Positions 405-4,473 of a DNA stretch of 64,000 bases are shown here, piece after piece. Position 1 is the stretch's first letter. Every line of letters starts with the position of its first letter. The notes below the pieces were generated by a model that had not been told where the DNA came from, made no database searches, and saw only the letters and a program-made list of their open reading frames with translations. Source of the stretch: an uncultured Ferrovum sp. (GTDB taxonomy: Bacteria; Pseudomonadota; Gammaproteobacteria; Burkholderiales; Ferrovaceae); assembly GCA_903893215.1 (NCBI GenBank), contig CAITLJ010000030.1:1-64000 (forward strand), read 5' to 3'. The translations under genes and the position numbers were made by a program.

Positions 405-1076
405 TCACCCGGACTTGCGCGCACCAGCGCGCTGGCTGGCCCACAGCGACGCGGCAGCCGAGCGGGTTTCGACACCCAGCTTCAGGTAAATATGCTCCAG
501 ATGTTTGGAGATGGTGCGCGGACTGGTGCTAAGGATTTGCCCGATGTCACGGTTGGTCTTGCCACAGGCCAGCCAGTCGAGAACTTCCTCCTCGCGCTGG
601 GTCAATTCACCCAGGCGCGCATTTCTGGGCACGCCCGAAATCGGGGTGAACAGGTCGCGTCCCCTGCGCGCCTCGTGCAGCACATGACTGTTGCGCAGAT
701 GGGTGGCCACCCGCGCGAGCACCTCATCGACCACGATCGGTTTGGTGACGTAATCCACCCCCCCCGCCTCGAATCCCAGCACGACGCTGCGTGTCTCGGT
801 CAGCCCCGTCATGAAAATCACCGGCAACTCGTTCCAGGCGGGATTTGCCTTGATGCGCCGGCAGGTTTCGAAGCCATCCAGTCCGGGCATCATTGCATCC
901 AGCAGGATAATGTCCGGCACGAGCCGATTCAGGCAGTCCAGCGCCGACAGTCCGTCGTTGGCGACCAGCACCATGTAGTGCGCCTCATCAAGGGCATCGC
1001 AGAGCAAAGCCAGATTTTCCGGCACATCATCAACAATCAGTACCACCTCGGCCTGCGCACGCACTTCAGCCACCAT
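405..1076 (-). CDS. LuxR/NarL-family response regulator of the amide/urea locus
   Basis: A 223-residue two-component response regulator. Residues 10-125 are a receiver domain with the acidic pair D16/D17, the likely phospho-acceptor D60 in PDIILLDAMMPG, and the conserved lysine in VDYVTKP. Residues 155-215 are a LuxR-type helix-turn-helix (LTQREEEVLDWLACGKTN, then TISKHLEHIYLKLGV). The ATG has a strong GGAGGGG site and overlaps the end of the upstream kinase gene by 11 nt, so the two are translationally coupled. The kinase is the likely partner. Its probable targets are the porin and ABC transporter promoters, which share a palindromic sequence. The family call is secure; the targets are inferred. 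Confidence 0.9.
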   Translation of the reverse strand: MVAEVRAQAEVVLIVDDVPENLALLCDALDEAHYMVLVANDGLSALDCLNRLVPDIILLDAMMPGLDGFETCRRIKANPAWNELPVIFMTGLTETRSVVLGFEAGGVDYVTKPIVVDEVLARVATHLRNSHVLHEARRGRDLFTPISGVPRNARLGELTQREEEVLDWLACGKTNRDIGQILSTSPRTISKHLEHIYLKLGVETRSAAASLWASQRAGARKSG

Positions 1077-4000
1077 GGTCCGGCCCCTCCAGCATCGAGA
1101 TGAATTGACGCAACTGGAACGCGCTCACCCGCTGGCGCGCCACCCTGCAGAACTCCGCATAGCGCTCGTCGGCCACTTCAAGGTCGGTGAGGCTGGCCAT
1201 CAGGCCCTTGATGTAACCCACTTCTGCGTGTTCACGCAGCACCTTCAGATGAGCCCCCTCGGGTTGCAGATAACTGCCGGATGCCGGTGCTGGTGCCGGT
1301 GCCAAGGCTGCTGCCGCTGCCGGCGCAACCGTGCCCGCCCCATCACCGCACGACCAGGTCAGCCGCAACTGGCGCTGCAAGGCGGCGAGCAGTTCACTCT
1401 CCAGGGTCGGCTTGACGATGAATTCGTCGCAGTAACCTTCTGCAATCCGGCTGGCGGCATTCTCGAATGCATCCGCCGACACCATGATGATCGGTGTGTG
1501 CTCACTCTCCCCGCTGCGGATGCGCCACGCGGTTTCCCAACCAGACATGCCCGGCATGGCCACATCCAGCAGCACGGCATCCACCGCATGCTCCCTGGCA
1601 ATCCGGTATTGCACCAACAAGGCCAGCGCCTCCGCCCCGCTGCCTGCCTCGACTACAGCAAACCCCAGCGGCACCAGCAACTGCGACAGCAGGCTGCGCT
1701 GCTCGGCCTGATCGTCGACCACCAGGATGCGACGCCGCGCGCCTTCGTAGCCAAAGATTTCCTGTCCGCGCGCAGACTGCTCGCTGGGCCTGGCCACGGC
1801 AGGAAGGTAGATGTGCGCGGTGAAGCGGCTACCCACCCCGGGCGTGCTGTCCACTTCCAGCCGGCCCCCCATCACCCCGGTAAGCAGCTTGGTGATGGTC
1901 AATCCCAGTCCCGTGCCTGCCTCGGCAAGCATCCCCATCTGGCTGCCCCGCTCGAACGGCAGAAAGATCCGCTCGAGGTCGTCGGCCCCGATCCCGCTGC
2001 CCGTATCAACCACATCAAACTGCGCCATCTCGCGCAGATAGGCCACCCGCAAAGTGACGGAACCATGGCGGGTGAACTTGATCGCATTGCTCAGCAGGTT
2101 GATCAGTACCTGACGCAGGCGGCGGGTGTCGGCATGCACCACTGGAGGCAGGCGGGACAATACCTCCAGCCTGAACTCGAGGCCGCGATCCTTCGCCTGT
2201 AACTCGAACATTTGATACGTCTCCTGCAGGAGCTGATGCAAATCCAGTTCCTGCCGGTCAAGCCTCAGGCGACCGGACTCGATCCTGGCAATGTCGAGCA
2301 TGCCGTCGATCAGTCCAAGCAGATGCTCGCCACTGCGCAGCATGATGGCGATGCTGTCCTGGCGTTTTGGGGGAATGTCGCGGTCGCGGCGCATCAATTG
2401 CGCATACCCGATGATCGTGTTGAGCGGCGTGCGCAGCTCGTGGCTCATGCCGGTGAGGAAACGGCTTTTTGCCTCGTTGGCAGCCTCGGCAAGTTTGCGC
2501 GCCCGCTCCACCTCCGCGTCGCTACGTTTGCGCGCCTCGATTTCCTGCAGCAACAACTGGTTCTGGCGATTCGACTCTTCATGCGCCAGGTGGCGGCTTT
2601 CGCTGGCCAGCACAAACCACCAGACCACCACCGCGCTGATCAGCGCCAAGGCAGCGAACAGCCGCAGGAACAGAGTGCCCAGTTCCTGCTGAAGCCAAGG
2701 GGCGGACGATTGCATCCGCAATGACTCCTGGTAATAGACCGCCATCAGGGAGGCAGCCAACACCGTACAAGCCAGACTCAAGGCAATCAGATACTGGCCA
2801 GTGTGCGAGCTGATGCGACCGGCCAGCGGACGCGGCAGGATGCGGCGCAAGGCACGCGAAATCTGGTCGGACACGCTCGAACCGGTCTTGCAGCGATCCA
2901 CACAACGCACATCCAGGGTGCAACATAGCGAGCAGATTGATCCGCCATACGCGGGACAGCTCGCCATGTCCTCGCTCTCGAACGTATTTTCGCAGATCAC
3001 GCAACGCCGGCTTGCCTGAGTATTCCAATCCGGGGCTTCACTGCGTGCAAGGTAGTACCGCCCGCGTGTACCCCAGGCAATCAGCGGCGCACACACGAAA
3101 GCGGTGGCCAGCGTCACGAAAGCCGAGAACGCCTGCAGTCCTGGCCCGAACAGTCCACCGTAAGCGCACATGCCAGCCATCGTGGCCAGGATGAGGGTAC
3201 CAAAACCAACCGGATTGACATCATAGAGGTGGGCGCGCTGAAACTCGATATGCCGCGGACTCCATCCCAGCGGCTTGTTGATCACCAGATCAGCAACCAC
3301 GGCGCCGATCCAGGCAATCGCCACGTTGGAGTAAAGCCCGAGCACGTTTTCAAGCGCCTCGAACACCCCGAACTCCATCAGCACCAGGGCAATCAGCACA
3401 TTGAAGCTTAGCCAGACCACCCGCCCCGGATGGCTGTGCGTCACGCGCGCAAAGAAATTCGACCAGGCCAGCGACCCGGCATAAGCATTGGTCACATTGA
3501 TCTTGATCTGCGAAATCACCACGAACACCAGCGTGGCCAAGGCAACCAGCCGCGGATCCTGGAATACATAGCTGTAAGCAGCCAGATACATCTGCGTCGG
3601 TTCTACGGCACGCCGAATGTCGACCTCGTGCTGCAGCGCCAGAAACGCCAGAAAGCCGCCCCCCATCATCTTCAGCATGCCAGGCAGGATCCAGCCCGGA
3701 CCGGCGGCCAGCACCGCCACCCACCACTGACGCCGGTTGGCTACCGTGCGGGCTGGCAGGAAGCGCAGAAAGTCGACCTGCTCACCAATCTGCGCAATCA
3801 GCGAGAACGCAATGGTGGTCGCTGACCCCATGGCTATCAGATCAATGTGGCTGCCATCACCCAACCGTCCACCAAAACTCAGGAACTCGGCGGCAATGCC
3901 GGGTTGCCTGTGCAGCACCGCGACGTAAGGCAGCAGCAGCAACACCACCCACAGCGGCTGCGTCCAGGTCTGCAGCCGGCTGATCAGGGTGACGCCATGC

Positions 4001-4473
4001 GTCACCAGTGGAATCACCACCAACGCACTGAAAATGTAGCCGAGCCACATCGGCAGGCCGAAGTAGATTTGCAGCGCGAGCGCGAGGATCGCCGCCTCCA
4101 GCGCAAAGAAAATGAACGTGAAGGAGGCGTAGATCAGCGAGGTGGCGGTGGACCCCAGATACCCAAACCCTGCACCACGAGTGAGCAGATCCATGTCCAC
4201 CCCGTAGCGCGCCGCGTAATAGCTGATCGGCAGACCGGTGAGGAAGATCATCAGGCTGGTCAACGCGATGGCCGCCATGGCGGTGTGAAAGCCGTAATCA
4301 AGCGTCATGGTGCCGCCAATCGCTTCAAGCGCCAGAAACGAAACCGAGCCAAGCGCCGTATTCGCTACCCGCCCGATCGACCAGCGCCGGAAGGCATGCG
4401 GCGTGAAACGCAACGCATAGTCTTCCATGGTTTCATTCGCGACCCACGCGTTGTAGTCGCGCCTGACTTTCAT
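1066..4473 (-). CDS. NCS1-like permease fused to hybrid sensor histidine kinase
   Basis: A 1135-residue multidomain protein. Residues about 1-475 resemble the NCS1 purine/cytosine permease family: a YNAWVANETMEDYALR N-terminus, about twelve hydrophobic segments, and DLLTRGAGFGYLGS. About 491-528 is a cluster of eight cysteines (starting CVIC, then CSLCC). Two further membrane segments follow at about 560-625. The kinase core has HisKA phospho-site H678 in MSHELRTPLN, N-box NLLSNAIKF and G-boxes DTGSGIG and GTGLGL. A receiver domain lies at about 915-1025 with D970 in AVLLDVAMPG. An Ala/Pro-rich linker and a C-terminal tail end the protein. MKVRR is chosen as the start because it matches the permease N-terminus; no clear ribosome site is seen. 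The protein may sense an amide, urea or related compound, or the act of carrying it, and signal to the adjacent response regulator. Domain calls are firm; the ligand is inferred. Confidence 0.85.
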   Translation of the reverse strand: MKVRRDYNAWVANETMEDYALRFTPHAFRRWSIGRVANTALGSVSFLALEAIGGTMTLDYGFHTAMAAIALTSLMIFLTGLPISYYAARYGVDMDLLTRGAGFGYLGSTATSLIYASFTFIFFALEAAILALALQIYFGLPMWLGYIFSALVVIPLVTHGVTLISRLQTWTQPLWVVLLLLPYVAVLHRQPGIAAEFLSFGGRLGDGSHIDLIAMGSATTIAFSLIAQIGEQVDFLRFLPARTVANRRQWWVAVLAAGPGWILPGMLKMMGGGFLAFLALQHEVDIRRAVEPTQMYLAAYSYVFQDPRLVALATLVFVVISQIKINVTNAYAGSLAWSNFFARVTHSHPGRVVWLSFNVLIALVLMEFGVFEALENVLGLYSNVAIAWIGAVVADLVINKPLGWSPRHIEFQRAHLYDVNPVGFGTLILATMAGMCAYGGLFGPGLQAFSAFVTLATAFVCAPLIAWGTRGRYYLARSEAPDWNTQASRRCVICENTFESEDMASCPAYGGSICSLCCTLDVRCVDRCKTGSSVSDQISRALRRILPRPLAGRISSHTGQYLIALSLACTVLAASLMAVYYQESLRMQSSAPWLQQELGTLFLRLFAALALISAVVVWWFVLASESRHLAHEESNRQNQLLLQEIEARKRSDAEVERARKLAEAANEAKSRFLTGMSHELRTPLNTIIGYAQLMRRDRDIPPKRQDSIAIMLRSGEHLLGLIDGMLDIARIESGRLRLDRQELDLHQLLQETYQMFELQAKDRGLEFRLEVLSRLPPVVHADTRRLRQVLINLLSNAIKFTRHGSVTLRVAYLREMAQFDVVDTGSGIGADDLERIFLPFERGSQMGMLAEAGTGLGLTITKLLTGVMGGRLEVDSTPGVGSRFTAHIYLPAVARPSEQSARGQEIFGYEGARRRILVVDDQAEQRSLLSQLLVPLGFAVVEAGSGAEALALLVQYRIAREHAVDAVLLDVAMPGMSGWETAWRIRSGESEHTPIIMVSADAFENAASRIAEGYCDEFIVKPTLESELLAALQRQLRLTWSCGDGAGTVAPAAAAALAPAPAPASGSYLQPEGAHLKVLREHAEVGYIKGLMASLTDLEVADERYAEFCRVARQRVSAFQLRQFISMLEGPDHGG

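Follow-up and report, generated by a model that had tools for sequence, protein, structure and literature searches.

CbrA and CrbS, two SLC5-STAC histidine kinases, are the closest described receptors in which a transporter domain of the LeuT fold is fused to a histidine kinase. Another transporter-like receptor is UhpC, which controls its own transporter homologue, UhpT; there the fold is that of the major facilitator superfamily, and the receptor and the kinase are separate proteins. The subject of this analysis is a protein of the CbrA/CrbS design, encoded in a stretch of 64,000 nucleotides from an uncultured Ferrovum sp. (positions 1 to 64,000 of contig CAITLJ010000030.1, assembly GCA_903893215.1), which is called the window below. 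This sensor differs from CbrA and CrbS in that its transporter part is related to NCS1 and not to SLC5, and in that a module of eight cysteines and two additional helices stand in the place of STAC. It probably senses urea and short-chain amides, with a diverged NCS1-type permease serving as its input domain, and would act via a LuxR-type regulator at the palindrome TACG-N8-CGTA.

The likeness to CrbS extends to the output. In the available part of PMC5715377, CrbS is a hybrid kinase whose LuxR-type regulator acts on an inverted repeat, but the substrates differ, and the palindrome found here is unlike the printed ACTU match TACTACCATCGTCGAAT. The neighbouring genes have described counterparts as well. 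The fmdCABDEF amide/urea cluster of Methylophilus methylotrophus combines a porin, a formamidase and a binding-protein transporter, as the window does; the accessible portion of its account names "a putative positive regulator" and mentions no permease-kinase. In Klebsiella, a plasmid carries urtABCDE, a formamidase, the permease-kinase and the palindrome, and the UrtABC/AmiF "UTS" locus of Klebsiella pneumoniae CG307 would be the same locus; the term "histidine kinase" is absent from the CG307 UTS paper (PMC13060141), and neither "histidine kinase" nor "sensor" occurs in the part of PMC11633122 that was available. No description of an NCS1-kinase fusion or of an NCS1 urea/amide permease was found in the open-licence PMC literature, which does not imply its absence in print. 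The principle is already known from CbrA and CrbS, but the literature found describes neither this transporter family in such a role nor the Cys linker, the operator or the kinase-free permease that is paired with the sensor.

The sensor and its diverged NCS1-type permease domain

The minus-strand frame 1066-4554 is open throughout in the window translation, without stops, and the sensor gene (1066-4503) encodes one intact protein of 1145 amino acids from GTG 4503. This codon is the likely start because GGAG lies 8 bases 5′ of it and several relatives begin about 10 residues before the ATG at 4473, from which the residues are counted here. The only Pfam matches on the sensor are HisKA, HATPase_c and Response_reg; His678, the N, G1 and G2 boxes and the receiver Asp970 are all there, as expected of a hybrid histidine kinase. 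The eight cysteines are residues 491, 494, 506, 514, 517, 518, 524 and 528. Six of them are invariant and two occur in at least 90% of 55 relatives, and a profile of this module alone gives matches in 27 of 150 genomes of the order. The AlphaFold model (700 residues, 55 sequences, predicted local distance difference test (pLDDT) 81, predicted template modelling score (pTM) 0.77) predicts a small Cys domain beside the permease bundle, and then two more long helices, in agreement with the hydropathy peaks. The regulator gene follows directly, with an 11 bp overlap at the sensor stop codon. The sequence-only reading had described one chain of permease, eight-cysteine cluster, two extra membrane segments, full histidine kinase and receiver, next to a partner response regulator, and all these parts were recovered.

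The same reading took the N-terminal half for NCS1-like, which held for remote homology and fold; the PF02133 threshold was not reached. Direct searches of Pfam, NCBIfam and PDB, with a single sequence and with the family profile (partly over the best 25 or best 60 matches), were negative for NCS1. A sequence search with the family profile did not retrieve an NCS1 structure, and the permease domain alone does not attain the PF02133 gathering score. In single scans with E up to 10, in which the HMMER filters drop most weak matches, PF02133 was listed for the N-terminal parts of 0 of 17 members. The question was therefore settled by hhalign and by the fold. The permease family aligned with 13 PF02133 proteins at a probability of 99.5 (E 3.4e-22, 383 columns), against 0.3 for a control profile of the UrtB membrane protein. 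The best matches to the fold of the AlphaFold model are CodB and Mhp1 (Foldseek E 4.2e-10), with VIA Z of 35.5 and 30.8, compared with 26.2 for the next family; the SLC5-type chains SiaT and CHT1 reach 22.2 and 25.1. There is no Pfam match to the SSF (SLC5) domain in the sensor at E 0.1, and STAC is not among its Pfam matches, although the library may lack a model for STAC. An example of a bridge to the canonical family is the kinase-free protein of locus L170, which is found by the family profile at E 7.7e-47 and passes PF02133 with 36.4 bits against 23.5. The permease domain is a diverged sister subfamily of NCS1 rather than a canonical member.

As a separate observation, the kinase-free NCS1 protein of L170 (9449-12665) has Arg at the position of Lys324 and Glu at that of residue 126, and a carbon-nitrogen hydrolase gene comes after it; this protein is possibly another amide permease.

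The profile alignment places Mhp1 Trp117 at Phe122 of the sensor, Gln121 at Glu126, Thr313 at Lys324 and Asn318 at Asn329. Among the sensors, the counterpart of Trp117 is Phe or Leu122, while Trp220 falls at a gap beside Leu225, with no Trp in the aligned stretch. According to the available parts of PMC4195764 and PMC9379551, Mhp1 Asn318 makes a two-pronged hydrogen bond to the N/O face of hydantoin, and the sodium of the CodB Na2 site is bound by Thr278 and Thr279. Across 119 sensors and 13 kinase-free permeases of the family, there is no variation at Glu126, Gln228, Glu231, Gln232, Asp234, Lys324, Asn326 and Asn329, and the same holds for three more sensors. The Na2 Ser/Thr pair of NCS1, located in transmembrane helix (TM) 8, is not kept: position 323 is Leu, Val or Ile in 112 of the 119 sensors, and position 324 is Lys in all of them. 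The sensor thus has its fold and the TM8 Asn in common with CodB and Mhp1, and differs from both in its place below PF02133 detection, in the changes of Na2 Thr to Lys and of Trp117 to Phe/Leu, and in the fused signalling domains. Such a pocket would retain the amide-binding Asn, lack the stacking Trp and hold Lys instead of the sodium ligand. The invariant Lys at the Na2 position argues against sodium coupling, as in the transceptor CbrA, whose Lys196 lies in the Na2 site (PMC13022988, available part).

One residue distinguishes the two kinds of protein strictly. Glu50 in TM1 is found in all 122 sensors and in none of the 13 permeases, which have Phe (11) or Gln (2); positions 46, 164, 332 and 403 also separate sensors from permeases, less strictly. 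Judged from the alignment, Glu50 is the best single candidate for what sets the receptor apart from the permease.

Gene neighbourhood and the putative operator

The sensor had been read as lying divergently to an amide/urea ATP-binding cassette transporter, and this is the case: urtABCDE-fmdA is encoded on the plus strand, with urtA, urtB, urtD and fmdA above the NCBIfam cut-offs and urtC and urtE recognized by similarity (Table 1). For the truncated porin, the like gene of a sister species is complete (L023:5023-6285; Porin_O_P slightly below its cut-off, and the ExtI porin profile also below cut-off) and is followed by the aliphatic amidase gene amiE.

The wider survey covered 122 sensor loci, which are a subset of all matches. 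The first 111 comprise the best 80 of at least 578 genome-contig relatives, 17 of 20 and 14 of 16 regions from two further fetches; L040 (truncated), L041 (lacking a sensor), L042 (own contig end) and the kinase-free L170 and L181 were dropped, and 11 loci were retrieved later. At least one of urtA, fmdA and ureC is present in 107 of the 122 loci, i.e., in 102 of the 111 and in five of the 11 (L213, L214, L218, L240, L246). The amiE gene occurs in 35 of the 111. Three contexts were distinguished. In type I (67 rows, counting the window), urtA is of the window's kind and mostly comes with fmdA; type II (34 rows) has urease and/or a second urt operon; in type III (L179, L180) the sensor adjoins FmdA. 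Pfam finds no receiver in the sensor of L180; the protein encoded after it is REC-HisKA-HATPase, and FmdA is followed by an AmiS/UreI channel. The common theme of types I to III is urea and small amides. On the tree of loci, the context labels need 12 changes, against 40 when shuffled, with ten rows unlabelled; types I and II therefore separate mostly, though not perfectly. In the Curvibacter locus L102, two sensor genes stand in tandem, one of type I and the other grouping with type II in the tree.

Nine of the 111 loci have none of the three marker genes, and two of these nine have urtBCDE. The later loci without them are L216, L217, L242, L243 and L244, plus L231, which has a kinase-free permease. 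The sensor-regulator loci L028, L084, L090, L092, L097, L123 and L124 show none of urtA, fmdA and ureC in the locus DNA examined, and the frames listed for six of them (all but L123) offered no explanation.

The proposed site of regulation is the palindrome between the sensor and urtA. In the 3.27 Mb genome, TACGTCAATTGACGTA has only two copies at up to two mismatches; both are exact, and they flank the sensor-urt cassette. The reduced form TACG-N8-CGTA is present in 59 of 66 type I sensor-urtA intergenic regions (those under 900 bp; 67 before the length cut), whereas the next best of the 256 palindromes reaches 10 and single-base shuffles of these regions give a mean of 0.3 and a maximum of 3. 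It also lies upstream of 9 of the 13 type II urtA genes (shuffles, mean 0.07). Several Pseudomonas loci have it between urtE and fmdA, and the plasmid loci of Klebsiella and Shinella contain it too. The second copy is followed, in the sister species, by the porin-like gene and the aliphatic amidase gene. About 30 bp from the operator, the same intergenic region of the window holds 4.6 perfect tandem copies of CGGCACTG (4624-4660).

Table 1. Features of the sensor locus, with positions in the window
Feature	Positions	Strand	Basis
Outer-membrane porin gene, truncated at contig end (N-terminal part); probably an amide/urea porin like FmdC	1..276	-	frame MKFPDLRTTRL...; like gene in sister species
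Second putative operator copy, perfect palindrome TACGTCAATTGACGTA, upstream of porin	367..382		genome scan; TACGTCAATTGGCGTA at equivalent site in sister species
Partner response regulator, receiver and LuxR/GerE helix-turn-helix	405..1076	-	PF00072, PF00196
NCS1-type permease / hybrid histidine kinase (sensor)	1066..4503	-	open frame, Pfam kinase domains, start comparison with relatives
C-terminal receiver domain, Asp970	1378..1728	-	PF00072 E 2.8e-20
HATPase_c	1807..2130	-	PF02518 E 5.7e-23
HisKA dimerisation/phosphoacceptor domain, His678	2272..2472	-	PF00512 E 3.2e-19, H-box
Two further transmembrane helices before kinase	2605..2808	-	AlphaFold helices 556-586 and 592 onward; hydropathy peaks 561-579, 605-623
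Eight-cysteine module, residues 491-528	2890..3003	-	Cys conservation
NCS1/LeuT-fold permease domain, residues 22-478	3040..4410	-	hhalign and CodB/Mhp1 fold match
Putative operator, perfect palindrome TACGTCAATTGACGTA, between sensor and urtA	4691..4706		palindrome and TACG-N8-CGTA conservation
urtA, urea/short-chain amide binding protein	4819..6075	+	TIGR03407 526 bits, cut-off 492.75 (scored with longer start 4699)
urtB	6148..7104	+	TIGR03409 388 bits, cut-off 250
urtC (start approximate)	7134..8279	+	tblastn to annotated urtC of Klebsiella plasmid, 68%
urtD	8318..9061	+	TIGR03411 376 bits, cut-off 304
urtE	9087..9776	+	tblastn to annotated urtE, 55%
fmdA, formamidase	9872..11104	+	NF045496 771.7 bits, cut-off 500
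FmdB-like small zinc-ribbon protein (start approximate)	11118..11450	+	Cys-pair motif in translation alone

The family is widely distributed. Matches were found in 19 of 61 relative genomes and in 43 of 299 genomes of the phylum; in the latter scan, 42 rows have E <1e-190 and frames of 894-1247 amino acids, all long enough for the fusion, and the other six rows are weaker matches with shorter frames. The genome-contig scan gave its relatives in beta-, gamma- and alphaproteobacteria. The permease domain is matched by 532 of 72,556 plasmid records, 342 of which are from Klebsiella, and the commonest annotated name among the matches listed is "ATP-binding protein". In the genome to which the window belongs, this sensor is the sole one of its family, and a urease alpha subunit is encoded on another contig (G000:C7:64683-65033). 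Two records, CP125156.1 and NZ_CP104448.1 (5.4 and 4.1 Mb), are plasmids according to PLSDB and look like chromosomes. On the Klebsiella plasmid NZ_OM489427.1 (L213), the urt-formamidase/permease-kinase locus is flanked by insertion sequences, with resistance genes farther along.

Reuse of the module and the kinase-free sister permeases

The permease, the Cys module and the two helices also head proteins with other outputs. In L216 and L217, they precede kinases with a receiver or with receivers and Hpt, in L242 a kinase without a receiver, and in L244 a PAS-kinase-receiver. Such differing outputs support a sensory role of the module itself. The pocket residues are identical in L242-L244, and L216 and L217 were included in the 119-sensor comparison. 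The ligand of the L216, L217 and L242-L244 proteins is argued from the pocket only, because their loci contain no urtA, fmdA or ureC. In L243, the module is fused to PAS-GGDEF-EAL without any kinase (6852-10481), and this protein is a possible transporter-type receptor controlling cyclic di-GMP.

The module is found without a signalling domain as well. A kinase-free protein of Acinetobacter lwoffii (535 amino acids) is 43.5% identical to the sensor domain, and a search with it gathered the sister permeases. Thirteen were compared; H63 (L249, in a urease operon), H61, H62, H66, H67, H69 and H73 were left out. The sister permeases are annotated as cytosine permease, allantoin permease or hypothetical protein. 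Nine of the 13 adjoin urease, formamidase or amidase genes: four lie within or close to urease genes (Klebsiella L230, Acinetobacter L215 and L235, G821 L241) and five close to fmdA and/or amiE (Moraxella L233, G807 L240, Methylovirgula L246, Tsukamurella L247, Arthrobacter L248). In Acinetobacter baumannii L231, the permease and a sensor-regulator pair point away from each other, and the operator lies between them. In L240, the order is regulator-sensor, operator, permease-fmdA-amiE, so that the permease takes the position of urtABCDE in type I. The loci L231, L240 and L246 each encode a separate kinase-free permease next to the sensor. To judge from these neighbours, the kinase-free proteins look like overlooked urea/amide importers. 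The urease operon of A. lwoffii has been described, and the word "permease" is absent from the available part of that account (PMC8472584).

The relation between the two forms was followed in trees. In the tree with 13 permeases, for which the bootstrap had not settled, these fall into a single clade (100/99) that nests beside types III and IV and L242-L244, and L240 and L246 are its basal members. These two have the full eight-Cys module, while the other 11 permeases have at most five Cys, some being cut at the match end. Basal permeases with a full Cys module would fit the loss of the kinase from a receptor, but the smaller tree, with seven permeases, disagrees and places the kinase-fused rows on one side (85/46). 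The outgroup branch is very long in both trees, so that either fusion or fission may have come first.

Proposed mechanism and competing explanations

The sensing role of the transceptor type that had been put forward for this protein is supported, as are the permease-kinase fusion, the partner regulator and the amide/urea transporter alongside. Urea or a short-chain amide (formamide, acetamide) would bind the permease pocket and change its conformation, and the Cys module with the two extra helices would relay this change to the HisKA/HATPase core. The attached receiver, the partner regulator or both would then accept the phosphate, and the REC-LuxR regulator would bind the TACG-N8-CGTA palindromes and turn on urtABCDE-fmdA on one side and the porin on the other, together with amiE in the sister species. 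Here, we infer the ligand identity, the direction of control, the binding of the regulator to the palindrome, the order of phosphotransfer and a metal in the Cys module.

Several points weigh against such a urea/amide receptor. As to the ligand, urea cannot be told from formamide or acetamide with these data. Within the locus DNA examined, urtA, fmdA and ureC were not found in 15 of the 122 sensor loci, and the more divergent sensors may therefore serve other regulons. The palindrome is absent from seven of 66 type I and four of 13 type II regions, and three of the 13 sister permeases (two from Streptomyces, one from Arthrobacter) have no amide gene nearby. The loci are related and partly hand-picked, and their counts are not independent events. 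Finally, the residues were mapped to Mhp1 and CodB by profile alignment alone, with a gap at Trp220.

A less likely variant of the urea/amide receptor is a transceptor of the flux type, in which the sensor domain imports urea or amide, coupled to protons via Lys324, and the signal reports the transport cycle and not occupancy. The tested pocket and Na2-site residues are indeed common to the sensors and the kinase-free permeases, and CbrA, in the available part of PMC13022988, imports histidine with the proton motive force and has a Lys in its Na2 site. However, Glu50 is confined to the sensors (122/122 against 0/13), where it could be a lock. Moreover, uptake by the sensor seems not to be needed, because type I clusters own urt genes and L231, L240 and L246 encode a separate permease.

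The near invariance of the eight Cys in the sensors could also mean that the permease is a mere membrane anchor and that the Cys module senses zinc, nickel or the redox state, nickel being required by urease. This is improbable, since the pocket residues are as conserved as the Cys, and the presence of the full module in the kinase-free L240 and L246 makes it not specific to signalling proteins.

The suggestion of a ring compound as the ligand, different from the cargo of the transporter, is not supported. NCS1 members of known substrate mostly carry ring compounds (PMC13390362 and PMC9379551, in the parts available), and the sister permeases bear the names of cytosine and allantoin permeases, but a sensor of nucleobases, hydantoins or allantoin is highly improbable given the urt, fmdA or urease genes in 107 of 122 loci, the frequency of amiE, the AmiS/UreI channel of type III and the amide-related neighbours of nine sister permeases, as well as the loss of the counterparts of Trp117 and Trp220 with the amide-binding Asn kept. 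For transporters of the urtABCDE type beside acetamidase/formamidase and aliphatic amidase genes, it has been argued that the cargo is amides and not urea (PMC3098086, available part). A sequencing or assembly error that joined a permease gene with a kinase gene is refuted by the fusion-length frames of all 42 strong matches in the 299 genomes, by the kinase homology that follows the permease in the retrieved loci and by the single coding sequence annotated in named records.

A broader proposal, held tentatively and at somewhat less than even chances, is that urea and short-chain amides are handled by the whole NCS1 subfamily labelled cytosine/allantoin permease or "ATP-binding protein", in which a Lys would replace the sodium ion. 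This subfamily would serve as a receptor module on kinases and on a GGDEF-EAL protein and, in the kinase-free form, as a proton-coupled urea/amide permease. One form would derive from the other; a receptor that lost first its kinase and then its Cys module may have given rise to the permease. The switch would be marked at the TM1 position, where sensors have Glu50 and permeases Gln, then Phe.

The sensor adds a second LeuT-fold family, beside SLC5, to the inputs of sensor kinases. Where a sensor and its kinase-free permease paralogue are neighbours, they represent a natural experiment on the path from transporter to receptor, or the reverse. The system is a proposed regulator for urea/amide uptake and urease genes in many proteobacteria, Klebsiella plasmids included, and it predicts that the permeases in the urease operons of Klebsiella and Acinetobacter would be urea importers, not cytosine or allantoin permeases.

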